The position numbers and the translations under genes were made by a program. A stretch of DNA of 64,000 nucleotides, from contig NZ_SLWU01000002.1 of assembly GCF_004345675.1 (NCBI RefSeq), positions 1 to 64,000 on the forward strand. The letters are read 5' to 3'. This DNA comes from Caldanaerobacter subterraneus (lineage in GTDB: Bacteria > Bacillota > Thermoanaerobacteria > Thermoanaerobacterales > Thermoanaerobacteraceae). Below are positions 3,427-24,021 of the stretch, in pieces (position 1 is the first letter of the stretch; each line of letters starts with the position of its first letter). The notes beneath the pieces are model-generated. The model saw nothing but the letters and a program-made list of their open reading frames with translations, was not told the DNA's origin and made no database searches.

Positions 3427-4020
3427 ATGTTATTAACTATAAAAAAGGTTAAAGAGCTGTATGATATAAGCAGAATTACATTAATAAACTGGGAAAAGGA
3501 AGGATTAATAACCCCAGTTAGAACACCAAAAGGAAGAAGAAGGTACAAAAAAGAAGATATAGAGAAGTTATTAGGCATGCTGGAAGAAAAACCGAAACCT
3601 AAAGTAGTTTTGTATGCAAGAGTGTCCACAAAGAAACAGGAAGAATATCTTAAGAATCAAATTAGAAGGCTTGAAGAGTATGCTAATTCTCAAGGGTGGC
3701 AGTATGAAGTTATATCCGAAATAGCAAGTGGGGTAAATGAAAACAGGAGAGGTTTATTAAAGCTTCTAAACAAAATCAAAAGAGGGGAAGTTGAAAAAGT
3801 TGTAATAGAATATCCTGATAGACTAGCGAGATTTGGCTTTGAATATCTCAAATTTTTCATGGAAAGCTTTGGGGTGGAACTTATAGTTTTAAACGGAAAA
3901 GAAAACGAGGAAGATGCAAATAAGGAACTAGCAGAGGACTTAATAGCAATAGTAACATCTTTTGCGGCAAGAATTTACGGACAAAAAGGCGGTAAAAAAC
4001 ATGGTAGTAATACAGGCTGA
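3427..4020 (+). CDS. tnpA: IS607 serine recombinase TnpA (copy B)
   Basis: This is the transposase of the element, a small serine site-specific recombinase that cuts and rejoins DNA through a Ser-DNA covalent link. Residues 1-50 form a MerR-like winged helix (KKVKELYDISRITLINWEKEG, then PKGRRRYKKEDI). Residues ~60-190 form the resolvase domain, with the nucleophile in ARVSTKKQ and the PDRLARFGF motif. The length of 197 residues is typical of IS607 TnpA. It differs from the copy C protein at only a few residues. Its last 20 bases overlap tnpB. Confidence 0.95.
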   Translation: MLLTIKKVKELYDISRITLINWEKEGLITPVRTPKGRRRYKKEDIEKLLGMLEEKPKPKVVLYARVSTKKQEEYLKNQIRRLEEYANSQGWQYEVISEIASGVNENRRGLLKLLNKIKRGEVEKVVIEYPDRLARFGFEYLKFFMESFGVELIVLNGKENEEDANKELAEDLIAIVTSFAARIYGQKGGKKHGSNTG

Positions 4021-5446
4021 ACTTGTGTTTTTAAGTCAAGAAGACAAACAAATAGTATTAGACTTAATGAGAAGATGGTCTTCATGCATGAGATTTGCAT
4101 ACAAAAGACTTTTAGAAGGTTATGATAGAAACACATTAAAAAGAAACCTTCAAGAAATGTTTGATTTAAACTCGAGATATGTAGATGACGCAATAATGAA
4201 AGCAAGAAGCATATTAGAATCTGCCAGTGAATTAGGAAGAAGCCCAAAGAAAGTCATTTTTGGTGGAAAAAAGCTGTTTAAAAAACTCCAAAAACGCCAT
4301 ATAAATGGAAAAGCATATGAAAAATTAAAAATTAGGTGGCAGGAGAAGAGAAAAGGAAACCTTTATTCAAGAGGGGATAAAAGCAAAAAAGGAAATCTCA
4401 ATACAAGGATGGAAATAAATGAGAATGGCACTTTCTTAAGGATAAATGTAGGAGAAAGAAAATATGTATATGCAAGAATACAGGCAGGATGGAAGAAGAA
4501 TAAAAACAAGGAAGAGATCCTGCAGGGAATTTCCAAATCGAATATACCATACTCCGTAGAGCTAAAACTTAAAAATGGCAGCATATACGCTTATTTTACT
4601 ATTGAAGAAGAGTATCCGGAAATAATGATAAAAAAAGACAAAGGAGTTATAGGTATAGACACCAATGCATATCCAGACAACATATCATGGGCAGAGACAG
4701 ATGAAAAGGGGAATCTAATAAGCTATGGCAGTATACCAATGCCAGAGCTTGCAAGCGGAAATAAAAACAAAAGAGAATATTTCAGATGGCAGTATGCTCA
4801 TGAAATAGTAAAAATAGCAAAAGAAAAAGGAAAAGCAATTGTAATTGAAGAATTAGAAATAAAAGACAAAGGTAAAAGAGGAGACTTTTCAGGGAGAAAA
4901 TCAAGAAGGATAAGGCATAACTTTAGCTACAAATCACTTTTAAAAAAGATAAAAGTTTTAGCAAAACGAGAAGGAATAGAAGTTATAGAAGTTAATCCTG
5001 CTTATACATCAATAATAGGCATGTTAAAATATGCACCGCAGTACATGATAACAAAAGATGTGGCAGCAGCCTATGTAATAGCTAGAAAAGGATTGGGACT
5101 GCAAGAAAAGATACCGGATAATTACATAAAGTTTCTCAACAAATTAACTACAAAAGAATTAGAAGAATTAGAAGACCATGTAGAAAAAACAGTTAAAAAT
5201 AAGCATTTAAAGAAAAAACATTTAAAGGAGATAAGAAAAGCAATAAAAATGATACAAAGCCTTGAGAGTGAGCCAGGAAGGGTGCTAGAACCTCTGGATG
5301 GAACAAGTTTTAGTGCCCATGATTTCTGGCAAGTTCTCAAGGTAGCGGTGGTAACGCCACTCTCCCCTGAGAGGGTATTAAGAGATGTCTCTGCCCTGAA
5401 GGGTGTATTACATTCGGGGCAAGTGGGGAGACCCGTAAGGGCGTGA
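4001..5446 (+). CDS. tnpB: TnpB RNA-guided nuclease of IS607 element, zinc-finger-less (copy B)
   Basis: TnpB is the RuvC-fold nuclease ancestral to Cas12. It cuts DNA matching a guide copied from the element's right flank and so favours retention of the element. The three RuvC acidic residues are visible: Asp220 (GIDTN), Glu283 (VIEEL) and Asp353 (TKDVAAAYVIAR). The Cys4 zinc finger that most TnpBs carry between the second and third of these is absent; the stretch is short and has no Cys. The ATG at 4001 aligns with copy C, and upstream in-frame codons overlap tnpA. The last ~60 codons run through the conserved right-end RNA region, so the true C-terminus is doubtful. Confidence 0.88.
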   Translation: MVVIQAELVFLSQEDKQIVLDLMRRWSSCMRFAYKRLLEGYDRNTLKRNLQEMFDLNSRYVDDAIMKARSILESASELGRSPKKVIFGGKKLFKKLQKRHINGKAYEKLKIRWQEKRKGNLYSRGDKSKKGNLNTRMEINENGTFLRINVGERKYVYARIQAGWKKNKNKEEILQGISKSNIPYSVELKLKNGSIYAYFTIEEEYPEIMIKKDKGVIGIDTNAYPDNISWAETDEKGNLISYGSIPMPELASGNKNKREYFRWQYAHEIVKIAKEKGKAIVIEELEIKDKGKRGDFSGRKSRRIRHNFSYKSLLKKIKVLAKREGIEVIEVNPAYTSIIGMLKYAPQYMITKDVAAAYVIARKGLGLQEKIPDNYIKFLNKLTTKELEELEDHVEKTVKNKHLKKKHLKEIRKAIKMIQSLESEPGRVLEPLDGTSFSAHDFWQVLKVAVVTPLSPERVLRDVSALKGVLHSGQVGRPVRA

Positions 5447-9610: not shown

Positions 9611-10204
9611 ATGTTATTAACTATAAAAAAGGTTAAAGAGCTGTATGATATAAGCAGAATTACATTAATAAACTGGGAAAAGGAAGGATTAATAACCCCA
9701 ATTAGAACACCAAAAGGAAGAAGAAGGTACAAAAAAGAAGATATAGAGAAGTTATTAGGCATGCTGGAAGAAAAACCAAAACCTAAAGTAGTTTTGTATG
9801 CAAGAGTGTCCACAAAGAAACAAGAAGAATATCTTAAGAATCAAATTAGAAGGCTTGAAGAGTATGCTAATTCCCAAGGATGGCAGTATGAAGTCATATC
9901 CGAAATAGCAAGCGGAGTAAATGAAAATGGAAGAGGCTTATTAAAGCTTTTGAACAAGATAAAAAGAGGAGAAGTTGAAAAAGTTGTAATAGAATATCCT
10001 GATAGACTAGCGAGATTTGGCTTTGAATATCTTAAATTTTTCATGGAAAGCTTTGGGGTAGAGCTTATAGTTTTAAACGGGAAAGAAAACGAAGAAGACG
10101 CAAATAAAGAACTGGCAGAAGACTTAATAGCAATAGTAACATCTTTTGCGGCAAGAATTTATGGACAAAAGGGTGGCAAAAAACATGATAGTAATCCAGG
10201 CTAA
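9611..10204 (+). CDS. tnpA: IS607 serine recombinase TnpA (copy C)
   Basis: This is a 197-residue serine recombinase with an N-terminal MerR-type helix-turn-helix (residues 1-50) and a resolvase domain with the catalytic ARVSTKKQ serine. It differs from copy B at only a few positions (for example Pro-Ile for Pro-Val near residue 30 and Gly for Arg in VNENG). That points to recent spread. It overlaps tnpB by 20 bases. Confidence 0.95.
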   Translation: MLLTIKKVKELYDISRITLINWEKEGLITPIRTPKGRRRYKKEDIEKLLGMLEEKPKPKVVLYARVSTKKQEEYLKNQIRRLEEYANSQGWQYEVISEIASGVNENGRGLLKLLNKIKRGEVEKVVIEYPDRLARFGFEYLKFFMESFGVELIVLNGKENEEDANKELAEDLIAIVTSFAARIYGQKGGKKHDSNPG

Positions 10205-11366
10205 ACTCATTTTTCTAAATCAAGAAGACAAACAAACAGTATTAGACTTAATGAGAAGATGGTCTTCTTGTATGAGATTTGCATATAACAGACTTTTAGA
10301 AGGAGAAAAAAGAGCAGATTTAAAAAGAAAGTTACCCCAGGTATTCAATTTAAACTCAAGGTATGTAGATGATGCAATAATGAAAGCAAGGAGTACACTG
10401 GAATCTGCGAAAGAACTAGGTAAAAGTCCAAGAAAAGTCATTTTTGGCGGAAAAAAACTGTTTAGAAAACTTCAAAAACATCATTTAAATGGTAAAGCAT
10501 ATGAAAAATTAAAAATTAGGTGGCAGGAGAAGAGAAAAGGAAATCTATATTCAAGAGGGGATAAAAGCAAAAAAGGAAATCTCAACACAAGAATAGAAGT
10601 AAATGAAAATGGTACTTTCTTAAGGATAAATGTAGGAGAAAGAAAGTATGTATATACAAAGATACAGGCGGGATGGAAGAAGAATAAAAACAGAGGAGAG
10701 ATGCTTCAAGAAATCTCCAAATCAAATATACCATACTCTGTGGAGCTAAAACTCAAAAATGGCAGCATATACGCCTATTTTGCTATTGAAGAAAAATATC
10801 CAGAAATAAAGATAACAAAGGACAAAGGAGTTATAGGTATAGACGCCAATGCATATCCAGACAACATATCATGGGCAGAAACAGATGAAAAGGGGAATCT
10901 AATAAGCTATGGGAGTATGCCAATGCCAGAGCTTGCAAGCGGAAATAAAAACAAAAGAGAATATTTCAGATGGCAGTATGCTCATGAAATAGTAAAAATA
11001 GCAAAAGAAAAAGGAAAAGCAATTGTAATTGAAGAATTAGAAATAAAAGACAAAGGTAAAAGAGGAGACTTTTCAGGAAGAAAATCAAGAAGAATAAGAC
11101 ACAATTTTAGCTATAAATCACTTTTAAAAAAGATAAAAGTTTTAGCAAAACGAGAAGGGATAGAAGTAATAGAAGTCAATCCTTCTTACACCTCAATAAT
11201 GGGGATGTTAAAATATGCACCGCAGTACATGATAACAAAAGATGTAGCAGCAGCCTATGTAATAGCAAGAAGAGGATTAGGACTGCAAGAAAAGATACCA
11301 GATAATTATATAAAGTTTCTCAACGCATTGACTGTAGATGAATTAGAAGAATTAAAAGAGCTGTAA
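10185..11366 (+). CDS. tnpB: TnpB RNA-guided nuclease, C-terminally truncated by frameshift (copy C)
   Basis: This is homologous to the copy B TnpB, with the same RuvC triad (GIDAN, VIEEL, TKDVAAAYVIAR) and the same lack of a zinc finger. One base is missing near 11358-11365 relative to copy B, which creates an early stop after ELKEL. The downstream frame (11390-11620, MKKKHLKEINKA...) is the displaced tail. The break falls after the last RuvC Asp, so nuclease activity might survive. It is more diverged from copy B than the TnpA pair is. Confidence 0.85.
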   Translation: MIVIQAKLIFLNQEDKQTVLDLMRRWSSCMRFAYNRLLEGEKRADLKRKLPQVFNLNSRYVDDAIMKARSTLESAKELGKSPRKVIFGGKKLFRKLQKHHLNGKAYEKLKIRWQEKRKGNLYSRGDKSKKGNLNTRIEVNENGTFLRINVGERKYVYTKIQAGWKKNKNRGEMLQEISKSNIPYSVELKLKNGSIYAYFAIEEKYPEIKITKDKGVIGIDANAYPDNISWAETDEKGNLISYGSMPMPELASGNKNKREYFRWQYAHEIVKIAKEKGKAIVIEELEIKDKGKRGDFSGRKSRRIRHNFSYKSLLKKIKVLAKREGIEVIEVNPSYTSIMGMLKYAPQYMITKDVAAAYVIARRGLGLQEKIPDNYIKFLNALTVDELEELKEL

Positions 11367-11762: not shown

Positions 11763-12629
11763 ATGAGAAAAGTAGTAAGCTTGTTCTTAATAATACTTTT
11801 TTCTACACTTGCTTTAATTAATCCTATCTATGCCACTGAAAGAGAAATAGTAACTTTAGGTTCAGATCTTACGCCTTCTCAACAACAGGAAATGTTAAAA
11901 TATTTTGGTGTTGAGGGCAAGCAAGTAAAAATTATAAAAGTCACAAATGAAGAGGAGAGGAAATATTTAGAAGGTTTAGTGCCAGGTAGGGAAATAGGGA
12001 CTCGTGCTATTTCTTCTGCTTATTTGCAGCTATTACCGGAAGGGGAAGGAATTTTAGTTGATACCCACAACATAACATGGGTTTCTAAAGAAATGTACGC
12101 AAATGCAATGATAACTGCAGGAATTAAAGATGCAAGGGTTGTGGTAGCTGCTCCTTTTAAGGTATCAGGAACCGCAGCCCTTACCGGAATAATGAAAGCA
12201 TTTGAGGAAGCCACAGGTAAAAAGTTAAGTGAAGAGGCGAAAAAGACTGCTAATGAGGAGTTAGTGATTACGGGTAAATTAGCAGAAAAAGTGGGTGAAG
12301 AGAAGGCAGCTGAACTTCTTGAAAAAGTGAAAAAAGAAGTAATTGAGAAGAGGTTGACGAATGAAAATGAAATTGCCAATGTGATAAAGGAAGTTGCCAG
12401 TAAGCTCAATATTAACCTAACAGAAGACCAAATATCTCAAATTGTTCAGCTTATGAAAAAAATAAATCAGCTTAATTTAGATATTGAAACAGTAAAAAAG
12501 CAATTAGAAAAAATCGGTGCAGATGTGGAGAAGATAAAAAAAACAGTTGAAGAAAATAAAGGCATATTACAAAAGATTTTAAAGGCTATTCAGGGTTTTT
12601 TGGATTGGCTCTTTTCACTATTTAGGTAA
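11763..12629 (+). CDS. Secreted DUF1002 family protein (YpuA-like)
   Basis: Residues 1-24 are a clear signal peptide ending PIYA, so the product is exported. The mature part matches the DUF1002 family in pattern: an N-terminal domain with TLGSDLTPSQQQEML, then a highly charged helical C-terminal half likely to form a coiled coil (residues ~150-280). It ends in a hydrophobic-aromatic tail (FLDWLFSLFR). The family's function is unknown. The ATG at 11763 is directly beyond the IS607 right end; an in-frame start at 11739 lies inside the element and lacks homology. Its original promoter and ribosome site have probably been displaced by the insertion. Confidence 0.75.
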   Translation: MRKVVSLFLIILFSTLALINPIYATEREIVTLGSDLTPSQQQEMLKYFGVEGKQVKIIKVTNEEERKYLEGLVPGREIGTRAISSAYLQLLPEGEGILVDTHNITWVSKEMYANAMITAGIKDARVVVAAPFKVSGTAALTGIMKAFEEATGKKLSEEAKKTANEELVITGKLAEKVGEEKAAELLEKVKKEVIEKRLTNENEIANVIKEVASKLNINLTEDQISQIVQLMKKINQLNLDIETVKKQLEKIGADVEKIKKTVEENKGILQKILKAIQGFLDWLFSLFR

Positions 12630-12659
12630 AGGGAAGTTAAACTGTATTGAGGTGAAATA

Positions 12660-13186
12660 ATGAAATATCTTATGTTTCCTTTCCCTATTTTTTATTTTTT
12701 AGCTTTTTAATATATTTTTCACCTCTTAGAATTAAGCTTGAAACCAAAAAAGATGAAGAAGTTATTTCCCTGAAAATAAAAACTAATATATTTTTTGTAA
12801 AATTGCTGAACTTTAAATTGTAAGTGGATTCAGAAGCTAAAAAGATTTGGATAAAGGTTTTAAGGATAAATTTTGCCAGAAGTGAAGGATAGAAAAGAGA
12901 GAGAGTCTCTACAAAAAAGCCTAGACTTCCACTGTTTGATGTAAGAAAAGTGGATTTTTTTGAAATTTTAAGAGTTTTGAAAGATATGCTTAAAGGCACT
13001 GTGGTTTATAGATTATACTTAAATATAAAAATTGGCTTAGAGAATACAGCGTGTACTGCTATTTTGACTGGATCTTTATGGGGATGGCAATACAGCCCTT
13101 ACGTCCATATACAATAGTGCAAATTTTGTTACTGTTCCGCAAGTTTATATTACCCCTTGTTATGGGGAAAGCAAAATAAATGTAAG
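12660..13186 (+). pseudogene. DUF2953 family membrane protein, frameshifted remnant
   Basis: The start is good (GAGGTGAAATA then ATG at 12660), but the frame stops after 16 codons. Successive frames then spell a DUF2953 protein: FSPLRIKLETKKDEE, NIFFVKLLNFK, VDSEAKKIWIKVL, VVYRLYLNIKIGLE, TACTAILTGSLWG, then FRKFILPLVMG. At least three frameshifts or stops are present, and the 3' end runs into the ISLre2 remnant. DUF2953 proteins are small membrane proteins of unknown function. No functional product is expected. Confidence 0.65.
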
Positions 13187-13700
13187 ATAGTGTAAAATTT
13201 CAGCAGTAACAAAGCAGGAAAATGAGGTATAGATGATGTTGAAAAAAGACCTCACCGGGGAAAAATCAAAAATCAAAACATAGAAAAGGTGAGGTCTAAT
13301 ATGTTATTAGATGTTCGACACAAGTGGGTATAATCCTGCTTTTTGTTCAAGGCTTAATGAAAATAATAAGGGAGAGTAAAGATGTTTATGAATTGGAGAG
13401 AAGGATACATGAACTTACACAAAAAGTATCAAGACAACTTCTTGAGTGGGCAGCAGAGGAGATGGATAAAAAGTTGATGGAGGACCGAGGCAAAAGAGTG
13501 TGGGAAGTAGTGGGATTTAGAGCAAAGCAGAAGGAAAAAAGAAAGTACACGGAAGAAGACATAGAAGAATGGTTAAAAGTTTCGTTACCGATACTGGAAG
13601 GCCCATTTGCGAGCAAGTCATGGATAAAATACGTTTTAAAGGTTATTAGCGGTGAGGTCGGCTATAAAAATTTTACCTCATAAAATCTTGATACGGACTT
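13187..13700 (+). mobile_element. ISLre2-type remnant, internally deleted (copy 2)
   Basis: This is a shortened ISLre2-type element that keeps both ends, an N-terminal and a C-terminal piece of the transposase, and nothing between. A perfect 10-bp inverted repeat (AGACCTCACC at 13247-13256, GGTGAGGTCT at 13288-13297) precedes the transposase start. The same stem with a compensating base change occurs in copy 1 at 5944-6255. It has no intact transposase and would need one in trans. Confidence 0.7.
13324..13683 (+). pseudogene. ISLre2 (UPF0236) transposase, internal-deletion remnant
   Basis: The first ~70 codons read like the N-terminus of an ISLre2 transposase (MKIIRESKDVYELERRIHEL..., then WEVVGFRAK). 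They are joined in frame to a C-terminal scrap (YTEEDIEEWLKVSLPILEGPF). The full transposase is about 450 residues, so more than 300 are missing, including the catalytic region. The likely native start is the ATG near 13357 rather than 13324. Confidence 0.65.
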
Positions 13701-13714
13701 TAAAACATCTTTTA

Positions 13715-13744
13715 TTGCATGGATAAGTAAATGTATAGTATAAT
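13715..13744 (+). promoter_or_regulatory. Probable promoter of the HyuA/deacetylase operon
   Basis: TTGCAT (13715-13720) and TATAAT (13739-13744) are 18 bases apart, followed by a ~105-base leader to the TTG start at 13850. No riboswitch motif was recognised in the leader. Confidence 0.45.
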
Positions 13745-13849
13745 GAAGGCAAGAGACGGAAAAATTTTCTCTGGGAGAATACAAAATACAAAAAACATTA
13801 AAATATAAAATGGCGTGATATTATTATTCCAAAGAAAGGAGGTTTTTAA

Positions 13850-15526
13850 TTGATCATCGGCCTTGATATGGGAGGAACTAATATAGACGGAGTTATCGTA
13901 GAAAAAGGCAAGATTATAAAAACCATAAAAAAACCTACAAATAGAGAGAATTTATTTAACTCCATCTGGACTGCCCTTAAAGAACTGCTTTCAGGATATG
14001 ATAACACTAAAATAGAAAGGATAAATTTAAGCACCACTGTATCTACCAACGCCATAGTTGAAAATAAACTTTCTCCTGTAGGAATGATTATTCAACCTGG
14101 TCCAGGTTTGCCTTATGATTTTTTAGCCTGCGGTGATGAAAACGTATTTATATCTGGATATATTGATCACAGAGGTGAAATAATTAAAGATTTTAATTTG
14201 TTTGAAATAGAAAATGCCATTAAATTATTCAAAGAAAAAAATATTAAAGCTTATGCTGTAGTCACTAAATTTTCTATTAGAAATCCTAGCATTGAAATAA
14301 AAATAAAAGAAATTTTGGAAAATGAAATACCCAACTCTTTTGTTACCATGGGACATACTATATCAGGCAAGTTAAATTTCCCTCGCAGAGTGTATACTTC
14401 TTATTTAAATTCAGCAGTGCACAGTATTTTTAATGAATTTTTAAATAATATTAAAAAATCCCTAGAAAAAGAAGGAATAAATGCACCAGTATTTATATTA
14501 AAAGCCGACGGCGGCACTATGAATATCTCTACAGCAGAGAAAAAACCAGTAGAAACTATCCTATCTGGTCCTGCTGCCAGCCTTATGGGAATTAATGCTA
14601 TGCTTCCTACCAATGAAGATGCAATATTACTAGATATTGGAGGTACTACTACAGACATATTTTTCCTTGCCGATGGAGTTCCTTTATTTGAACCGTGGGG
14701 AATAAGAATAGGTAAATATAAAACTTTAATAAGAGCAATTTATAGTGTTTCCATAGGTTTAGGTGGAGATAGTAGTATTTGTGTTAGAAATGGCAGGATA
14801 AAAATAGGCCCCCAAAGAGAAGGAGTGCCTTACGCTTTTGGTGGTCCCAAACCTACTCCTACAGATGCCATGATAACCTTAGAGTTGATAGATGAAAATG
14901 CATTTCGCCTCACTCACGATAATGTTAAAAAAGCTTATGAAGCAATGACTTTATTGGGAAGAGAGTTAAATTTATCAGCAAAAGATATGGCAAAATTAAT
15001 TCTCAGCACTATGGGAGATATTATTAAAAATAAAGTAGATGAACTTTTACATGAAATAAATAGCCGTCCCGTTTATACTGTAAAAGAATTATTGTACGGG
15101 AAAAAAATTAAACCTAAGCTGATAAATATAATTGGTGGTCCTTCTAAAGTATTAGCCCCTGTACTTGAAGAAAAGTTTAATTTACCTTGCTATTACCCTA
15201 AAAACTATTCTGTAGCCAACGCTATAGGTGCAGCTTTAGCACGACCAACTACCGAAATTACAATGTTCGTTGATACTTCTAAAAAAACACTTTCTGTACC
15301 TGAATTAGGATTATATGAAAAAATAAGTGGAAATTATACTCTTGATAAAGCAAAAGAAAAAGCTTTAGAATTAGTCAAAAAATCTGCTCTATCTCTGGGC
15401 GCTTCTATTGAGGAAATAGAAGCTGAAATAGTAGAAGAAAGTAGCTTCAATATGGTAAGAGGATTTTATACTATCGGAAAGAACATGCGAATTAAAGCTC
15501 AGGTAAAACCAGGACTTATCCAATAA
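13850..15526 (+). CDS. Hydantoinase/oxoprolinase-family (HyuA-like) ASKHA protein
   Basis: This protein has the actin-like ATPase fold of the HyuA/acetophenone carboxylase/oxoprolinase family. Phosphate loops are visible at the N-terminus (GLDMGGTNIDG) and centrally (LLDIGGTTTDIFF), with the SGPAAS motif near residue 240. Known members use ATP to open cyclic amides or activate ketones. At 558 residues it is shorter than classical HyuA (~650-700), and no HyuB partner is nearby. The TTG at 13850 follows AAAGGAGG. The next gene starts 18 bases on, so the two are almost certainly co-transcribed. The substrate is unknown. Confidence 0.8.
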   Translation: MIIGLDMGGTNIDGVIVEKGKIIKTIKKPTNRENLFNSIWTALKELLSGYDNTKIERINLSTTVSTNAIVENKLSPVGMIIQPGPGLPYDFLACGDENVFISGYIDHRGEIIKDFNLFEIENAIKLFKEKNIKAYAVVTKFSIRNPSIEIKIKEILENEIPNSFVTMGHTISGKLNFPRRVYTSYLNSAVHSIFNEFLNNIKKSLEKEGINAPVFILKADGGTMNISTAEKKPVETILSGPAASLMGINAMLPTNEDAILLDIGGTTTDIFFLADGVPLFEPWGIRIGKYKTLIRAIYSVSIGLGGDSSICVRNGRIKIGPQREGVPYAFGGPKPTPTDAMITLELIDENAFRLTHDNVKKAYEAMTLLGRELNLSAKDMAKLILSTMGDIIKNKVDELLHEINSRPVYTVKELLYGKKIKPKLINIIGGPSKVLAPVLEEKFNLPCYYPKNYSVANAIGAALARPTTEITMFVDTSKKTLSVPELGLYEKISGNYTLDKAKEKALELVKKSALSLGASIEEIEAEIVEESSFNMVRGFYTIGKNMRIKAQVKPGLIQ

Positions 15527-15544
15527 ATTGAGAGGTGAATGAGA

Positions 15545-16852
15545 ATGATTAAAGCTAAAAATAGATTGGGCATTGTATTCTTTCCTGCTTTTGACTGGGC
15601 TATTAGTCCTACTCATCCAGAAAGAGAAGAAAGACTCCTTTATACTCAAGATCAAATTTTTGAAGAAGGAATTGAAGACATTGAAGGAGTTAAATTTTAT
15701 AATCCAATTATTGCTGAAGAAAAAGATATTAACAGAGTACATTTTGTAGTGCCAGATGTAAAATCTGTAGTTACTCAATCTCACCTCATATCCGCCGGTG
15801 GAGCTATTAAAGCCCTTCAAGCAGTGATGGAAAAAGAAGTAGATAAAGCCTTTGCTTTAGTTCGTCCCCCAGGGCATCATGCTCAGAGAGTAGTTTATGG
15901 AGACAGAGGTTTTTGTATAATCAATGTGGAAGCAGTAATGCTAGAAAGAATAAGGCAAGAATATGGAAATTTAAGAGTCGCCATTGTAGATACAGACTGT
16001 CACCACGGTGATGGCACTCAAGATATCTATTGGAACGACAAAGATACTTTGTTTATTTCTCTCCATCAAGACGGAAGAACTCTCTATCCTGGAACAGGAT
16101 TTATAGAAGAATTTGGAGGCCCAGCTGCTTATGGGTACAATATAAATATCCCCTTACCTCCTGGAACAGGAGAAGAAGGTTTTCTATACGTATTAGATAA
16201 TGTGGTAATACCTATTTTAGAGGAATATAAACCTGATATAATAATAAACTCTGCTGGCCAAGACAACCATTATACAGACCCGCTTACCAATATGAACTTT
16301 ACAGCTCAAGGATATGCAAAATTAAACGAACGACTAAATCCTGATGTTGCAGTTCTTGAAGGAGGCTATTCTATTGAAGGAGCTTTGCCTTATGTTAATT
16401 TGGGAATAATATTAGCTATGGCAGGTATTGACTACTCTAGAGTGCGTGAACCAGATTATGATGAAGAGAAATTAAAACAGCCAAAAGATATTACAGAATA
16501 TATCAAAAAATTGTCAGAAATAGTATATAACCGCTGGAAAAATAAAGATGACTTGCGATTAAAAGAATTTAAAGATGTGAATTATGTAAAAAGACCTAGA
16601 CGAGTGTATTATGATACAGATGGTATATTAGAAACACAAGTTCAAAATTTTAAAATATGTAACAAGTGCTCTGGAGTAAATACAATTGAGTCAAAAAGTG
16701 ATAGAGGATATCATATATTTGCTATAACTATTCCTAGAGATGCCTGCCCTAATTGTATTGATGAAGGATACAAACTGTATAAAAATGCTTCTTCTCATTA
16801 TACAAATGTGTATTTACAAGATAGAGTAAATGACGAATATTATTCTAAATAA
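15545..16852 (+). CDS. Histone deacetylase-family amidohydrolase with C-terminal zinc-ribbon-like tail
   Basis: This zinc hydrolase has the arginase/deacetylase fold of HDACs, AcuC and acetylpolyamine amidohydrolases. The catalytic pair His111-His112 (PPGHHA) and the metal ligands Asp151 and His153 (DTDCHHGDG) and Asp240 (SAGQDNH) are present, as is the EGGYS segment. Residues ~300-435 form an extension with CNKC and CPNC pairs that could bind another zinc. The ATG at 15545 is preferred over 15539 because of spacing to GAGGTG. It forms a two-gene operon with the HyuA-like gene. The likely reaction is hydrolysis of an N-acyl or other linear amide; the substrate is unknown. Confidence 0.85.
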   Translation: MIKAKNRLGIVFFPAFDWAISPTHPEREERLLYTQDQIFEEGIEDIEGVKFYNPIIAEEKDINRVHFVVPDVKSVVTQSHLISAGGAIKALQAVMEKEVDKAFALVRPPGHHAQRVVYGDRGFCIINVEAVMLERIRQEYGNLRVAIVDTDCHHGDGTQDIYWNDKDTLFISLHQDGRTLYPGTGFIEEFGGPAAYGYNINIPLPPGTGEEGFLYVLDNVVIPILEEYKPDIIINSAGQDNHYTDPLTNMNFTAQGYAKLNERLNPDVAVLEGGYSIEGALPYVNLGIILAMAGIDYSRVREPDYDEEKLKQPKDITEYIKKLSEIVYNRWKNKDDLRLKEFKDVNYVKRPRRVYYDTDGILETQVQNFKICNKCSGVNTIESKSDRGYHIFAITIPRDACPNCIDEGYKLYKNASSHYTNVYLQDRVNDEYYSK

Positions 16853-16945
16853 AAACACTATCTGGTGTTAGTATATTATTGTAATAATAAGTCTCAAAAA
16901 AGTTCAAAGACTAAAAAAATCAATAAAAGCGCTAAAAATTAACTC

Positions 16946-16978
16946 AAAAAGCGCCCAAGGAGATTATGGGCGCTTTTT
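16946..16978. terminator. Bidirectional Rho-independent terminator
   Basis: AAAAAGCGCCCA and TGGGCGCTTTTTT form a strong stem around a 9-base loop, flanked by A- and T-runs. It serves both the deacetylase operon and the convergent PLD-ATPase gene. Confidence 0.9.
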
Positions 16979-19057
16979 TCAAGATTTTACTAATCCTTTT
17001 ATCAACCTTATGACAGGATTTAGCTTTTTCTTTTCTCCGATGTATTCAAAAAATTCTTTTTCGTTTAGTATAAGGATATGGCTGGATTCGTTTATGCAGC
17101 CGGGGCCCAGCATATTTAGAGCGAAGTCTTTTTCTTTAGGATCTTTGAAAAGCTCGTTTATTTCTACGTAGATTGTGCCATCAGGCCTTATTTGAAAGAG
17201 TTCTTTGTGATGTTTATATTTTTCCTGCCACCATCTTTTTCCTCTCTCTTCGTAGTCGTTAAAAGGCTTTTTGGGGAACCATTCGGGGAGGTCCATTTTG
17301 CATTCTCTGTAGTATTCTTCAAAAATTTTTCTAGCCGCGTATAGGTAATCATTTCGCAAATACAGAGGTTCTCCCTCTCGTATTAGTTCTCCCATTCTAT
17401 AAGTAAAATCTTTGAAAAGGGTACTATTTATTCCTCTTCTAATTTTAGTGAGATGCTCCTGTGATTCTAAATTGTATCTTTTGTCAAACTCGCTATCTAT
17501 CTGCAAATAGTAAATTCTTCTTAAGATTTGCTGGGGTACATTGAATTCGTTCATATTAGTAGTGCAGATCATTACAGGATGCTTGCCTTTCGCATTGTTA
17601 CTTACATTTTTTATGATATTTTCACCAGTTCTACCTGTAAAAAAGGAAATTGGCATTTCATCAACTAAAATTGGGGCCAGATATTCACTGCCAAAAAATC
17701 CTTCTAAAAGTTCTCTGTCTGCTACATTTCCTTTTCTTATGGTGTCGTATGAGATGAAATAGGGTGGGTAGTTTCCTAAAAGCATTCCTATTATTTCTAA
17801 GGCAGTGGTTTTTCCAGAATAAGCCCTTCCTCCGAGGACTAAGAAAATAGGCACATTGGCTCTGTAACTCTCTCCTCCATATTGTATAACTAAATCTTCT
17901 CTAATCTTCCACAAATAGACAGACATAAAGGCGTAAAGTATAGCTTCCATAACTTTCCCCAGGTGTTTATCTTCTTTTGTAACGGTGAATTTTCTATAAG
18001 CTTCAACAAATTCTGTTATTAAAGAAATGTGAGTTTTGATTTCGTCTTTTTCAGCTTTTTGGGAAAATTCTGCTGTTTTATTGTCTTCTGATACAATATA
18101 GATTAGGTCATTTTTGTCCCAATATATTAACTTTTGGCAAACTTGCAATTGGTCTTCTTTTAGTGAGTTTGACACCAGAGTATCTACTACTATATTCATT
18201 TTTCTTATCTCTTGAGGGGGTTTAAGTCTATAGACTTTTCCATCTTTTTTTGTGATTGCGGCGATGATTTGGGTCTTTTGCCTTACTTCATTTGCCTGAA
18301 GTTCAGCTTGATACTGGATATTCTGAGGGGATGCCTTCCATTCTTCAAAAATTTCTTGAGAAAGAGGAACGATGTGGTAAAGGTTTCTTGCGATTTCATT
18401 GGTAACTATATTTGCTTTTTCTTCTTTATCCAATACAATTGTTTGGGCTTTTTCCTGCTTTATCTTTTTCTTTATCTCCTCTGGTACAAAGTCAAAGCTA
18501 TTTGAAAAAAGCTTCTTAAACCACTCTAAATATATTTTAAAAATCTCAGGCTGGTTATCAAATATTGCTATGTTTTCATACTGTTTTTCTCCACTAAAGG
18601 CTCTTTCAGTGAGATTGGCAGATCCTATTATCACGCGAGTATTGCCAGTATCAGGATTTTCTAAAAGATAAAGCTTTGTATGTATTGGCAAATTAGTATT
18701 GCAATACCTTATTTTTACTTTATCTTCCGAGACTTTGGTTTGCAACTCAGCATCAAATTCTTTGATGAAGTCAATTCTTTTATTTACATCTATTAAAAGG
18801 GAATAAACGCTGTTAAAATTTATTGCCTGTTCTGCTGAATCAATGCCGAGTATAAATTCTACTTCTTCAAATCCTTTTACAACTTTAGCGAAGAACTTGG
18901 GGGAGGAAACGTATGAAATTGCCATAAACTTTTTAAATCTATGGGAATCAAAAATTTCCTCAATCGATAGATTTGCTTGTTCACCGTTGAGCACTATAAA
19001 AAGGGTGCTTTCCTTTCCCTTTACGGAGCCTATATCTAAAGTCATCTGTTCTGCCAT
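16979..19057 (-). CDS. Phospholipase D-like nuclease fused to P-loop ATPase (candidate defence protein)
   Basis: Residues ~35-175 form a PLD domain with one HKD-type motif: His126-x-Lys128 (HTKLYLL) followed by Ser146 and Asn148 (GSANLTE). A linker of ~220 residues follows. The ATPase module has Walker A at 409-418 (GGRAYSGKTT), Walker B at 463-467 (ILVDE), a TTN sensor near 500 and an RR pair at 513-514. That arrangement resembles SF3/AAA-type motors. I do not recognise the exact family. Single-HKD PLD nucleases dimerise, and nuclease-ATPase fusions of this size are common in antiphage systems, so defence or DNA processing is an inference. The start ATG at 19057 (MAEQMTLD) follows AGGGGG; the ATG at 19084 is less likely. 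Confidence 0.75.
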   Translation of the reverse strand: MAEQMTLDIGSVKGKESTLFIVLNGEQANLSIEEIFDSHRFKKFMAISYVSSPKFFAKVVKGFEEVEFILGIDSAEQAINFNSVYSLLIDVNKRIDFIKEFDAELQTKVSEDKVKIRYCNTNLPIHTKLYLLENPDTGNTRVIIGSANLTERAFSGEKQYENIAIFDNQPEIFKIYLEWFKKLFSNSFDFVPEEIKKKIKQEKAQTIVLDKEEKANIVTNEIARNLYHIVPLSQEIFEEWKASPQNIQYQAELQANEVRQKTQIIAAITKKDGKVYRLKPPQEIRKMNIVVDTLVSNSLKEDQLQVCQKLIYWDKNDLIYIVSEDNKTAEFSQKAEKDEIKTHISLITEFVEAYRKFTVTKEDKHLGKVMEAILYAFMSVYLWKIREDLVIQYGGESYRANVPIFLVLGGRAYSGKTTALEIIGMLLGNYPPYFISYDTIRKGNVADRELLEGFFGSEYLAPILVDEMPISFFTGRTGENIIKNVSNNAKGKHPVMICTTNMNEFNVPQQILRRIYYLQIDSEFDKRYNLESQEHLTKIRRGINSTLFKDFTYRMGELIREGEPLYLRNDYLYAARKIFEEYYRECKMDLPEWFPKKPFNDYEERGKRWWQEKYKHHKELFQIRPDGTIYVEINELFKDPKEKDFALNMLGPGCINESSHILILNEKEFFEYIGEKKKLNPVIRLIKGLVKS

Positions 19058-19251
19058 TAAGATACCCCCTAACCTTTGCTTCACAGTCTATTTTATCATA
19101 ATTTTGAGATAATTGCTCAATTTTTTAAAAAATATTTGGAAATTCTACAAGAAAAGAAGGATTTAGGCTTTTGTTGTAGAATTATTAAAATACAGAAGAA
19201 AAATGTCGAATATTCTAATCGAAGAGTTCATTAAAGAGAGGAGAAATTGTG

Positions 19252-21594
19252 ATGGAAAAGAAAAAAGTAGCAGTTTTCTTGCTCTCTTCCTCCTTGGTAT
19301 TATCTATGGCTAATAATGCTTATGCTGCTACAATACTGAAGTATGGGATGAGATCTCCTGAGGTGAGAAAGCTTCAGGAAAATTTGAATAGACTGGGATA
19401 CTTCGTAACTTCTACTCCTACAGACTATTTTGGACCGGCTACTTTAAATGCTCTTATAAAATTCCAGAAGGATTCTAATTTGGTGCCTGATGGAATATAC
19501 GGACCTTCTACAGAGAAAGTTCTTTTGGAAAAACTGAATGCTTTTTCTGGTAAAAATGTAAGTAGTCCTCCTCAAACTTCTAATACATCTAATTCATCAG
19601 CTACTCAAACAGTCGCACAAGCTACATTTTCAAGGACATTGAGATATGGGATGCAGGGAGAGGATGTAAAGTTTCTGCAGAGTATTTTAAACAAGCTGGG
19701 CTTTGATGTAGGGACACCTGATGGCATATTTGGTTTTAAGACTCAAAATGCTGTGGTGCAATTTCAGAAGGCGAATGGATTAGTGGCAGATGGAATTGTA
19801 GGGCCCGCAACTCAAAAAGTGTTATTGCAAAAAGTTAATGCCCCTTCTCCTTCAAGAGGAGATGAAAAAAGGGAAGAGGTTCAGACGACATTGCCCTCTA
19901 GCTCTAATGGAAGTGGAAAAGGTATTTCTAATGGAGATGGAAATGCTATTTTCAATAAGGTATTGAAATACGGAATGATAGGAGAAGAAGTGAAGCTTTT
20001 ACAGCAGTATCTGAATAAATTGGGATTTGATGCTGGTGTCCCTGATGGAATATTTGGTGGAAAGACGAGACAGGCAGTTATAAATTTTCAGAAGTCAGCA
20101 AATCTTGAGGCAGACGGGATAGTAGGTCCTATGACATGGCAGGCACTTATTTCGAGGTTGAATGTGACACTTCCTTCCAGAGGAGATGTAAATAGAGATA
20201 ATCCCCAAAATCAAAAAGAAGACCAGATACAATTTCCTACTCCTTTTACAAGGGAATTAAAGGGAGGACTCCAGGGAGATGATGTGAAGCTATTGCAAGG
20301 AATGCTTTCAGAACTTAAATATTATGATGGAGATGTAACTGGTACATATGACGATGTCACTTCAAATGCAGTAAGATCTTTCCAACAGTATTATTCTTTA
20401 AATCCTACGGGAATTGCGGATGTCGACACGTTAAAAAAACTGTTAGAAGTGGATGCGCAAGTGAAGGCGGTCAAGGGATTTTATGTTCAAGGGAAAGGCG
20501 GATATGGCCACGGTGTTGGAATGACGCAGTTTGGCGCAAAGGGGATGGCAGAACAGGGATTTAAGTATGACGAGATAATAAAATACTATTACACAGGAGT
20601 GGATATAAATAAGGTAGACACTTCCAATGTCAATGTGAAAGTAAAAATTAGCTTGGATGTTACAAGTCAGGATATAAAGATTACAAGCAGTCAGCCATAC
20701 AATGTCATATACAAAGTAAAGGACGATAGCACAGGTCAGATAATTGAAAAACAGGAGACTTTTTTGCCTGATTCTGTAACTTCTATAAATTACCTAGATG
20801 GCAATATTTTAATTGCAAATTCACAATCTCCTGAAATAAGAACTTCAGTAGATATGGTCAAAATTGTACCTACTAACGATGGGGTGCTATTTTACGTTAA
20901 CAAGGCAAGGCCTTATGAGGGAGAATTTAGGATATATCCAAATCCAAACTCTATCCCTTCTGGTTTGGACTTAATAAATGTGCTTCCGATTGAGGAGTAT
21001 TTGAGGGGAGTAGTGCCAGCAGAGATGTCGCCTTCTTGGCCTGAAGAGGCGTTAAAAGCTCAAATTCTTGCAGCTAGAACTTATGCCTTAGTGAGGATAA
21101 AAGATGAGAATATTTTTGACGTTTACGACACAACTCTTTCGCAAGTTTACAAGGGTATTTCTATTGCTGACCCCAAGATTGACCAGCTGATTGAGTCTAC
21201 AAAAGGGGAGGTAGTTACATACGGCGGAAAATTGGCGGATACTGTTTACAGCGCTTCTGCAGGGGGCTATACAGTAGATTCATTTTTTGCCTGGAAAAAA
21301 GATGTTCCGTATTTGAAGGGCAAACCTGACCCTTATGATACTTCTAAATACGCTACTTATTGGTGGAATGTGAGCATTTCTAGAAGTCAAATAGAAAAAG
21401 CATATCCTCAAATTGGCGCTGTTTTAAATGTTGAGATTACTAAGAAGATGTTTGACAGACCTGTGGAGATTAAAATCACAGGGACCAAAGGAATTATCAC
21501 GGTAGGAAATGATGATTTTAGGAAGGCTATTGAAGATGCAGCAGGGCAGAAGCTTTTTGCTTCAGAGTATTTTGATATTGTGATTCAGAATTAA
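19252..21594 (+). CDS. Secreted SpoIID/LytB-domain protein with four peptidoglycan-binding repeats
   Basis: A signal peptide (residues 1-26, ending AYA) precedes four PG_binding_1 repeats at about 30-90, 128-188, 236-298 and 336-392. Each has the R/G-L-G-(Y/F)...FG...AVxxFQ pattern. The third and second linkers are Ser/Asn/Thr-rich with a repeated PSRGD motif. The SpoIID/LytB domain occupies ~550-750 (EEYLRGVVPAEM, AQILAARTYAL, SASAGGYTVDS). SpoIID-type proteins cleave glycan strands as lytic transglycosylases. The GHGVGMTQFGA motif, usually near the end, lies here before the domain at ~417. The ATG at 19252 follows GAGAGGAG. It likely acts in cell-wall remodelling. Confidence 0.9.
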   Translation: MEKKKVAVFLLSSSLVLSMANNAYAATILKYGMRSPEVRKLQENLNRLGYFVTSTPTDYFGPATLNALIKFQKDSNLVPDGIYGPSTEKVLLEKLNAFSGKNVSSPPQTSNTSNSSATQTVAQATFSRTLRYGMQGEDVKFLQSILNKLGFDVGTPDGIFGFKTQNAVVQFQKANGLVADGIVGPATQKVLLQKVNAPSPSRGDEKREEVQTTLPSSSNGSGKGISNGDGNAIFNKVLKYGMIGEEVKLLQQYLNKLGFDAGVPDGIFGGKTRQAVINFQKSANLEADGIVGPMTWQALISRLNVTLPSRGDVNRDNPQNQKEDQIQFPTPFTRELKGGLQGDDVKLLQGMLSELKYYDGDVTGTYDDVTSNAVRSFQQYYSLNPTGIADVDTLKKLLEVDAQVKAVKGFYVQGKGGYGHGVGMTQFGAKGMAEQGFKYDEIIKYYYTGVDINKVDTSNVNVKVKISLDVTSQDIKITSSQPYNVIYKVKDDSTGQIIEKQETFLPDSVTSINYLDGNILIANSQSPEIRTSVDMVKIVPTNDGVLFYVNKARPYEGEFRIYPNPNSIPSGLDLINVLPIEEYLRGVVPAEMSPSWPEEALKAQILAARTYALVRIKDENIFDVYDTTLSQVYKGISIADPKIDQLIESTKGEVVTYGGKLADTVYSASAGGYTVDSFFAWKKDVPYLKGKPDPYDTSKYATYWWNVSISRSQIEKAYPQIGAVLNVEITKKMFDRPVEIKITGTKGIITVGNDDFRKAIEDAAGQKLFASEYFDIVIQN

Positions 21595-21600
21595 GTCAAG

Positions 21601-21625
21601 GAGCCTCCGAAGAGGAGGTTTTTTA
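21601..21625 (+). terminator. Rho-independent terminator
   Basis: CCTCC (21604-21608) pairs with GGAGG (21614-21618) and is followed by TTTTTTAT, just after the SpoIID/LytB gene. Confidence 0.7.
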
Positions 21626-21690
21626 TATAAGTTGCTTTTTTGCAAAAGATAGAATATATTATAATTACAAAACTTTGGGTTGGTGATTGT

Positions 21691-22926
21691 ATGGAAGAAC
21701 TTACAAGAGATAAGGAAAGAGCTATTTTAGTCGCTATTATTTCTTCTCCTGAGGATGAAGAAACGCTTAATGAATTAAAAGAGCTTGCAGTGACTGCCGG
21801 AGCTGAAGTGATTGGGATACTGACCCAAAAAAAGAAGGGGATAAACAAGGCTCATTACATTGGCAAAGGCAAACTGGAAGAATTGAAGATGTTTGTGGAG
21901 AATCAGCAGGCTGATTTGGTGATTGTAAATGACGAACTCACAGGGACCCAGATAAAAAATCTTGAGGATGCTTTAGGCGTCAAAATCGTAGATAGAACTA
22001 ACCTCATATTGGATATATTTGCCAAAAGAGCTCGCTCAAAAGAGGGAATGCTTCAAGTAGAGTTGGCTCAGCTAAAATATCGTTTGCCAAGACTTGTAGG
22101 CTTAGGAGGGCAGCTTTCCAGGCTGGGAGGAGGAATAGGGACAAGAGGGCCGGGGGAGACAAAATTAGAAGTTGATAGAAGACATATCAGGAATAGGATA
22201 AAGGCTATAGAGGAGAAGTTAGAAGAATTAGAGAAACATAGAAATTTGCAGAGGCAAAGAAGAAAGAAAAATCAAATTCCCGTTGTGGCAATTGTGGGTT
22301 ACACCAATGCAGGAAAATCGACTTTGTTAAATGCTTTGACAGGTGCTGATGCTTATGTGGAAGATAAATTATTTGCCACATTAGATCCAACTGCTAGAAA
22401 GCTTGTACTTCCTTCAGGCAGAGAAGCCATTTTGACCGATACAGTTGGGTTTATAAGAAAACTTCCGCATGATCTGGTGGAGGCCTTTAAATCTACCTTG
22501 GAAGAAGTGAAGTATGCGGATTTGCTGCTGCATGTGATTGATGTAACATCTCCTGACATGGAAGAAAAGATAAAAGTTGTGGAGAAGGTGCTTTCTGATT
22601 TGGGAGCAATTGAAACTCCCAGGATAAATGTCTATAACAAGATAGACCTTTTAGAAATTGTACCTTCAGGGAATAACAGAGATATTTACATATCTGCAAA
22701 AAATAAAATAGGGCTTGACAGGCTTTTAGAGGCTATTGAAAGAGAGCTTTTTAAAGAGACAGAGGTGGTGAGTTTTTTATTCCCCTACGAAAAAACGAGA
22801 GAGTATAATTATTTAAAAGAGAGAGGGAAGGTGATTGAGGAAAAATTTGATGAAAAAGGGATATCAGTAAAAGCTGAGGTTACGGGTGAGATAAAAGAAA
22901 GGCTTAGGAATTTTATTATCTCTTGA
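21691..22926 (+). CDS. hflX: Ribosome-associated GTPase HflX
   Basis: HflX is a stress GTPase that splits stalled or heat-damaged 70S ribosomes. The 411-residue protein has the N-terminal HflX domain, the glycine-rich family signature ([17 protein letters not shown] near residue 150), and the G domain with G1 [10 protein letters not shown]3 DTVGF and G4 NKID. The ATG at 21691 matches family starts; the upstream in-frame extension has no homology. Its last 11 bases overlap the end of the convergent DUF3189 gene. Confidence 0.96.
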
Positions 22927-23398
22927 TGGCGTTGTATTCTGCTTTTTCCTGTGCTTTAACGTTTTTTACTATTTGTACAATTTTTTTGTAAGATTTTTGT
23001 GTTCCGTAAGTTACAAGAGGCCTTCCCAGCACAGGAAATTTTAGTGCGATTGAGAGGAATCCTCCAATTTTCATCAACCAATTTGTAGCGGCAGTTGTGT
23101 CTACTAATAAAAGACCTTCGTTGGTGTTAAAAAGATGGTAGTATAGGTCTTTTAAAGCTGGTTCTATGAGCTTTTTTGCATTTTTTACTCCCATGGAGTA
23201 TACATTATTGCCGTATTCGTCAGTTCCAATTAAGACTATATGACCTGGGTCGTTTTGTCCGTTTAATTTATCAAAAAGAGGTATGCCTTCTATCTGCTCT
23301 CTAGATGGGGTCTTGTCTTCGGGCAGTTGACCTGTGTGGATATAAGCTGCTATGACAGAAGTATGTGTGCCTCCATAACAGTGATAGATTATGTGCAT
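22916..23398 (-). CDS. DUF3189 family protein
   Basis: This 160-residue protein opens [14 protein letters not shown] and matches the pattern of DUF3189 proteins of spore-forming Firmicutes, whose function is unknown. The N-terminal strand followed by a CYGGTHTSV loop resembles a nucleotide- or phosphate-binding turn. There is no signal peptide; one hydrophobic stretch lies near residue 110-125 ([15 protein letters not shown]). A strong AAGGAGAG site precedes the ATG. It stands alone on the minus strand. Confidence 0.75.
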
Positions 23399-23592
23399 AT
23401 AAAACTCTCCTTCCTTTCTCTTGCAGTACTTATTGTCTGTGATTTTTGCTTTTTTATACTGGAAAAAAGTAATTTTAAATGTATAATTATGGTGACCGGT
23501 GGAAAAATAAAAATAAAATTAAAAATTAAGCAGGAATTTGAGAGTTTTTAAAGAATATTATAATAAAAGAAAATGTTTTAGGGGGCTTGAAA

Positions 23593-24021
23593 ATGTTAAT
23601 AAGAGAGTGCGCTGGAGGAGTTGTATTCAAAGGAGACAGTGTATTTATCCTCAAAAATGAAAAGGGGGAATGGGTGTTACCCAAAGGGGTCATTAGAAAT
23701 AATGAACTCCCCATTGACGTGGCCATAAGGAGAGTGTGTGCTGAAACAGGTCTTAAGTCAGTTGAAGTCCTTTCTACTGCTGGTGAGACCAGCTATGAGT
23801 TCTATTCTGTAACCCGTCAGCGTCCCGTCTTTAATAAAATCACCTGGTATCTCATGACGACGAGTGAAGAGGAATTTAATATAAGCAAGGAGGACGGCTT
23901 TGTTGATGGAGGATTTTTCCCCATAGACAAGGCATTGGAGATGATTACCTACAGTCAAGATAAATCGCTTGTAAACGTTTCTTACTTTAAATACAAAACT
24001 CTCACAAAAGCGCTGGCTTAA
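23593..24021 (+). CDS. Nudix hydrolase-fold protein with degenerate Nudix box
   Basis: Nudix enzymes hydrolyse nucleoside diphosphates linked to another group. The fold is recognisable (ECAGGVVFKGD, then GEWVLPKG and the Nudix helix). The catalytic signature is altered: the box reads G-x5-E-x7-RRVCAETGL, where REUxEExGU is expected, so the first Glu is Arg and the second is Ala. Only the last metal-binding Glu remains. It may be a weak enzyme or a non-catalytic binding protein. The ATG at 23593 follows AGGGGGC. The length of 142 residues is normal. Confidence 0.8.
   Translation: MLIRECAGGVVFKGDSVFILKNEKGEWVLPKGVIRNNELPIDVAIRRVCAETGLKSVEVLSTAGETSYEFYSVTRQRPVFNKITWYLMTTSEEEFNISKEDGFVDGGFFPIDKALEMITYSQDKSLVNVSYFKYKTLTKALA

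Follow-up and report, generated by a model that had tools for sequence, protein, structure and literature searches.

The locus and its gene

The window analysed here is a stretch of 64,000 nucleotides from Caldanaerobacter subterraneus (contig NZ_SLWU01000002.1, positions 1 to 64,000); one of its genes, present in a single copy in the genome, encodes a protein in which a PLD nuclease domain is joined to a P-loop ATPase (Table 1). The ORF finder picked a GTG start that gives 701 aa, while the ATG at 19057, preceded by a ribosome-binding site, gives 692 aa—the length proposed in an earlier note made from the letters of this DNA. The reading frame is open in the aligned full-length relatives as well. 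The bidirectional terminator that the note had assigned to the gene is a strong one, with a 12-bp stem, a T-run in both directions, folding energies of -17.6 and -19.0 kcal/mol and z about -4.5 on both strands; a simple terminator scan missed this hairpin because its loop exceeds 8.

The gene does stand alone, as had been claimed: a hydantoinase/histone-deacetylase-like pair lies on one side, and on the other a SpoIID/peptidoglycan-binding gene followed by a gene that we take to be HflX-like. No defence gene adjoins it, and nothing else at the locus is a defence gene. In four loci of the same genus that match either flank, the segment 16862-19235, which holds the gene and its terminator alone, is unmatched; homology to genome G007 stops at 16861 on the left and homology to G001 starts at 19236 on the right, so the gene and terminator fill a gap between two blocks. 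An Rfam scan of 12500-24000 gave no match, and repeats around the gene include no notable flanking pair. Upstream of the locus are two IS607-type resolvase genes (MerR and Resolvase domains) and a UPF0236 remnant, presumably ISLre2-type (3427-5446, 9611-11366 and 13324-13683 for the three together); behind each resolvase gene comes an ORF that overlaps it and has no Pfam match.

Table 1. Features of the PLD-ATPase gene and protein, in window positions.
Feature	Positions	Strand	Basis or remark
Coding sequence, 692 aa	16979..19057	minus	ATG at 19057, TGA stop 16979-16981
Ribosome-binding site AGGGGG	19065..19070	minus	read from sequence; precedes ATG at 19057
QMTLDI, residues 4-9, candidate sliding-clamp motif of hexapeptide type	19031..19048	minus	family motif census
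PLD nuclease domain, residues about 23-195	18473..18991	minus	Pfam PLDc_2/RE_NgoFVII, fold matches
H126	18680-18682	minus	
K128	18674-18676	minus	
S146	18620-18622	minus	
N148	18614-18616	minus	
Helical linker, lower confidence, residues 196-308	18134..18472	minus	AlphaFold2 model
Cch/SaPI-Rep-like ATPase, residues 309-679	17021..18133	minus	half-protein model, fold matches
Walker A GGRAYSGKT (K416)	17807-17833	minus	
Walker B ILVDE (D466/E467)	17654-17671	minus	
Sensor-1 TTN (N501)	17555-17563	minus	
RR (513-514)	17516-17521	minus	
Basic C-terminal tail, residues 681-692	16982..17017	minus	predicted helix
Bidirectional intrinsic terminator hairpin	16946..16978	both	between two convergent genes

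Relatives and their distribution

Among the 60 other genomes searched, two from the same family hold full-length relatives at 46% identity; counting its own genome the gene is found in 5/61, two of the five copies being partial. Within the genus, one genome in ten—the query's own—has it intact, and one other (G002) keeps a remnant, 41 aa of the C-terminus at 78% identity (L004:1501-1635), which follows, in frame, what by eye is a MarR-like fragment. More distant relatives, at identities down to about 20%, sharing the PLD and P-loop halves, extend over several phyla, archaea included. A profile search found the gene in 13/398 genomes of the phylum (about 3%) and in 13/189 and 8/250 of further sets, and an alignment-based scan located 23 loci in named genomes, whose hosts include Carboxydothermus, Lysinibacillus, Desulfurellales, Sulfurimonas, Arcobacter, Thermodesulfovibrio, Mesoaciditogaceae, Gracilibacteria and Aenigmatarchaeota. 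Plasmids gave matches in 19 records, six with at least 80% coverage; single-protein scans of genome contigs and viral contigs, an alignment-based scan of viral contigs and a search of 50,697 phage records gave none. A distribution as sporadic as this is what a mobile accessory gene shows.

A tree of 41 rows has two clades and places the query with G012/G016 and Carboxydothermus (support 100/99), in a half where host phyla are mixed. In two species the gene is 98% identical and sits within rearranged versions of one island (L031, L032), with Shango sequence in both versions and McrBC seen in one. In the Aquifex aeolicus plasmid ece1 the motor half is split across two overlapping ORFs (L012:9755-11069). 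In 6/12 rows of the divergent clade the PLD-helicase is directly followed by a gene of about 190-206 aa (L039:10083-10703, L040:8098-8700, L042:10485-11066, L043:10539-11117, L106:8098-8712, L109:8032-8631); by eye it carries a degenerate serine-recombinase domain and an HTH (GLKRxTFYxMxxEY), and two examples scanned against Pfam gave no match.

Of the 42 assembled rows, 40 enter the motif and residue counts below; the other two, G012 and G760, were dropped as near-duplicates. Sequences kept out of the 42 were duplicates or near-duplicates (L045, L048, L055, L053, L064), partial or broken (L050, L051, L056, L060, L065), partial, broken or distant (G352, G149, G051, G002, G466, G487, G521), of unsure start (Lsal), or from the same locus as another row (G201, same locus as L063).

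The nuclease half

The N-terminal half matches the Pfam families PLDc_2 (E 1.2e-10) and RE_NgoFVII (1.1e-8), both beyond the curated cut-off, and a PDB sequence search returned usable E-values for PLD-domain relatives only. The domain model agrees with this assignment, its fold matching NucT (Z 12.1, rmsd 3.0 over 131), NgoAVII R (Z 11.8, rmsd 3.6 over 150) and Nuc (Z 11.5, rmsd 3.6 over 137). With HxK and GSxN set in a PLD fold the query belongs to the PLD superfamily, and its four catalytic residues are at the positions first proposed; the Asp that a classical HKD motif would have is not conserved, the query having E as read from the alignment.

Both halves keep their active sites across the family. 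In the A4 alignment (22 rows) H126, K128, G145, S146 and N148 are retained in at least 90%, as are G415, K416, T417, D466, E467, N501 and R514 of the ATPase. By regex HxK is found in 38/40 rows (a few matches fall at another His), GSxN in 38/40, and Walker A and B in 38/40, the two rows without the latter being fragments; the catalytic His is lost in two rows (G277, G455). Since these motifs persist in 38/40 rows, both catalytic centres appear to be under selection.

The motor half

Sequence profiles say little about the C-terminal half. At E up to 10 the query matched no profile of a known ATPase family from Pfam, PHROGs, NCBIfam or PADLOC, the best PHROGs value for the query was 0.033, and profile scans of 22 family members yielded only weak AAA-type matches. 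The Walker A, Walker B, TTN and RR elements previously described are all present. AlphaFold2 supports a PLD domain followed by a P-loop ATPase, which was one of the checks suggested in the note: the whole chain, modelled with an alignment of 22 sequences, reaches pLDDT 79.8 and pTM 0.53—the latter leaving the domain arrangement unfixed—and the C-terminal half alone reaches pLDDT 86.2 and pTM 0.83.

The model of the motor half is most similar to two replication helicases of mobile elements. Among the fold families that VIA lists (BrxL is not one of them), SCCmec Cch (5dgk) matched at Z 13.8 with rmsd 7.1 over 303 residues, and SaPIBov1 Rep (8tch) at Z 13.3 with rmsd 8.3 over 291 residues; MCM came next at Z about 10, some 3.5 below, and Foldseek also ranked Cch first. 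The tool warns that helix-rich models may score in this way by common arrangement; here, however, a pair of related helicases scores well above all others and covers nearly the whole model (residues 10-388 of 393). In PMC7581432, Cch is described as MCM-like, related to the self-loading initiator of SaPIBov1, and as containing DUF927. The query has no DUF927 match at E up to 10, nor have the 22 members at 0.01. Thus the Cch/SaPI-Rep fold extends over the full helicase half, and membership of the Cch/SaPI-Rep sequence family was rejected for lack of a DUF927 match; at the query locus and the relatives' loci read, no recombinase/primase operon was noticed adjoining the gene. Judged by its model, the motor is a Cch/SaPI-Rep-like ring helicase and not a generic SF2 or AAA protein. 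The earlier label of SF3/AAA-like ATPase can be narrowed by fold to the Cch/SaPI-Rep lineage. By analogy with Cch, the query would form hexamers and unwind DNA.

Beyond the motor most members have a conserved FxxFIG-like element and then a short basic end that includes aromatic or aliphatic residues. This tail is conserved in kind across the family, with a mean charge of +3.3 (38 sequences, near-duplicates among them). MinD-type membrane-targeting tails resemble it; helical amphipathicity is inconsistent here. A membrane anchor was rejected as a general description, the hydrophobic moment clearly beating shuffles in some members only (mean shuffle fraction 0.33).

A candidate clamp motif at the N-terminus

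The first 15 residues of the query model have pLDDT under 50, and within them lies a short element, missed by the earlier note, that may point to replication. PMC12309361 gives the consensus for sliding-clamp binding as QL[S/D]LF or QxxLF, and QLSLPL as a tight-binding E. coli clamp peptide. Searching for the strict pattern Q[LIMFVTAD][SDNT]L[FL] within the first 40 aa, we found it in 13/40 relatives versus 0/820 other ORFs from the same loci, or in 9/32 clusters at 70% identity (clustered by hand); beyond aa 40 it occurs in 0/42 family rows, and anywhere at all in 13/820 background ORFs. The forms include QLSLF (G647), QLDLF (G747), QFSLF and, in G016, QISLL; for L054 and L067 the N-terminus was taken from the stretch of the same open frame that precedes the automatic start. 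A smaller earlier test with a similar regex found 6/28 rows, which 0/1000 shuffles reach. The p-values for the motif are optimistic because the regexes were composed after the sequences were seen. Rows of the G201 order (QLDLF, QLNLF, QLSLF), added after the first test, agree with it.

The strict motif is absent in 27/40 rows, archaeal and Lactobacillaceae members included, and the query's QMTLDI is a hexapeptide variant, not the canonical pentapeptide. Two looser patterns were set aside: [SDNT]LF (32/40 versus 44/820), as the domain start itself often reads 'LFD', and a wider regex fitted to QMTLDI (14/40 versus 17/820, one a truncated query copy). As a hypothesis read from the motif, docking on the clamp is strong for some of the family but weaker for the query itself.

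Neighbourhoods of relatives

Several relatives lie beside known defence genes: McrBC (G012, G291), Shango SngA/B/C (G016), a BrxD-like gene (G155), DISARM DrmABC (G385), PDC-M33A (G106), HEC-06/Orf5 (G277, G525; we take these to be GmrSD-like), two type II methyltransferases (G536) and PbeA (G704). Defence genes are found within about 3.5 kb at 7/24 loci, or 9 with borderline cases, versus 1/20 control stretches taken in those genomes (Fisher p 0.043 or 0.011, respectively)—counts from a small sample, made by eye and not blind. For this count 25 loci were taken as 24, as G012 and G016 share one island, and L107 (G466) and all loci from other phyla were left out; the one positive control is by eye a CRISPR-type region (L117), about 16 kb from a family member on the same contig. 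Unfiltered PADLOC tallies hardly differ between neighbours and controls, with 49 versus 42 families at 1e-25. In Salinigranum the gene belongs to a co-directional run of Piwi, PLD-ATPase, a 693-aa gene, PD-(D/E)XK and a helicase, with gaps of 36, 5, -4 and -4 bp. In this haloarchaeal plasmid run (L010:7151-18421) the 693-aa gene is annotated UvrD and has no Pfam match.

The single-gene antiphage role suggested in the note thus gains from the nuclease-motor fusion, from the gene standing alone and from relatives lying near defence genes more often than controls do, and is weakened by the query's own lack of a defence neighbour. The context named in advance as speaking against it, a plasmid replication module, is seen in a minority of relatives (rep/par) and not consistently.

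Interpretation

We favour, at about even odds (roughly 0.5), a stand-alone enzyme directed against mobile DNA, in which a Cch/SaPI-Rep-like helicase is combined with a PLD nuclease and a clamp-docked N-terminal peptide. The architecture is the firm new part of this reading and the clamp motif the most testable part; a defence role is plausible but unproven. Nuclease-motor fusions are common in prokaryotic defence, and the motor of this one is similar to the helicases that SCCmec and SaPI elements use for their own replication. As in Cch, the C-terminal half would be a hexameric helicase that translocates on DNA; like known PLD nucleases, the PLD half would act in pairs, metal-free, through a phosphohistidine. 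If the motif is what it seems, the flexible N-terminal peptide would tether the enzyme to the host's sliding clamp, DnaN, and so bring it to DNA at or behind replication forks, where it would cut aberrant or invading DNA. Its target could be abnormally replicating DNA, or an incoming phage or plasmid that uses the host clamp, and the basic tail might also contact the membrane, DNA or a partner. Nuclease and helicase activity of the query, together with clamp binding, are predicted from sequence and models.

A sharper version—an immune enzyme riding the clamp, which uses a parasite's replication motor, a PLD domain and a DnaN peptide to destroy phage or plasmid DNA on the host replisome—is a tentative and somewhat doubtful proposal. 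If true, it would mean a widespread, unnamed single-gene defence system that picks its target via the replication clamp. Such a principle could be tested directly: changing two residues of the five-residue tag to alanine should abolish targeting.

Plasmid-borne relatives suggest a different role, as a maintenance or replication factor of plasmids and integrated elements, with the PLD domain processing element DNA and the chromosomal copies as relics. The motor fold is indeed nearest to element-encoded replication helicases, and besides the plasmid records matched, an Arcobacter copy lies in a plasmid backbone 250 bp from parA and near rep, and a Ligilactobacillus plasmid copy about 2 kb from rep genes. 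However, each plasmid read with rep genes carries its own Rep, for most members the flanks read showed no sign of rep, par or integrase genes, and the gene is missing from the phage records and from both scans of viral contigs; nor would this role explain the neighbouring McrBC, DISARM and Shango genes. We regard it as unlikely.

Alternatively, the protein could be a helicase-nuclease tied to the clamp for stress or fork repair, spread horizontally and not aimed at invaders. Clamp motifs of this kind are typical of replication and repair proteins (PMC12309361). Many members have housekeeping-like neighbours alone (L049, L056, L058, L061, L062 and the query), a point that also counts against the favoured reading, and L058 adjoins genes that by eye are Ku/LigD-like. 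The presence in about 3% of the phylum's genomes, the lack of conserved repair neighbours and the single intact copy within the genus are unlike core repair, and make this role rather improbable. Equally improbable is an abortive-infection effector whose ATPase senses infection while the PLD domain degrades host DNA or RNA and the clamp motif leads it to host forks, for which the single gene, a plausible PLD toxicity and a tail of possibly membrane-targeting kind speak, but against which stand the lack of an antitoxin-like partner at the query locus and a replicative-helicase-like fold that suggests processive DNA action, not sensing.

Comparison with known systems

The note could assign the protein to no named system, and in scans with PADLOC, Pfam and NCBIfam no model was found that combines PLD with a Cch/SaPI-Rep-like ring helicase; the literature searched held no paper on a PLD nuclease/Cch-like helicase fusion. 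PADLOC-DB 2.0.0 gave no full-length match, and its partial matches are confined to the PLD part (ZacB 2.2e-6, REase_II 4e-5). DISARM DrmC was rejected, with no DrmC match for the query and no drm genes at the locus; weak NCBIfam DrmC matches occur in 3/22 members, and the DISARM locus next to G385 comes with a DrmC of its own.

With SCCmec Cch and SaPIBov1 Rep the protein shares the fold of its whole C-terminal half; unlike them, it has a fused nuclease and no recombinase or primase operon nearby, at 12-13% identity and with no common sequence family found. With NgoFVII/NgoAVII R, NucT and Nuc it shares the PLD fold and motif, whereas those proteins are without a ring helicase. Some family members parallel the clamp-docked peptides PolC QLSLF and E. 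coli QLSLPL in placing the same short motif within a flexible segment; the query variant differs in being non-canonical, and docking here is predicted from the motif.

The pairing of a PLD nuclease with a DNA motor is that of SauUSI (PLD and SF2 helicase, 7clg), PbeA and Druantia III DruE. The motors of SauUSI and DruE are SF2-type. PMC10853773 describes the PbeA motor as SF2-type as well. The query motor, in contrast, is by its model ring-type and Cch-like, and a candidate clamp motif occurs in part of the family; a SauUSI-type enzyme was rejected, with no SF2 profile among the Pfam/NCBIfam matches and a motor model that resembles Cch/MCM. A BrxL with a C-terminal HKD nuclease, described in PMC12839542, likewise joins an HKD nuclease to an AAA+ DNA motor, with the domain order reversed and in a BREX operon context; this identity too was rejected, with no BrxL match in PADLOC, an N-terminal nuclease and no BREX operon at the locus. 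By the tests made the protein is a member of none of these groups, and our best reading, by analogy, is that it would act as the PLD-motor defence enzymes SauUSI, PbeA and BrxL-HKD do.
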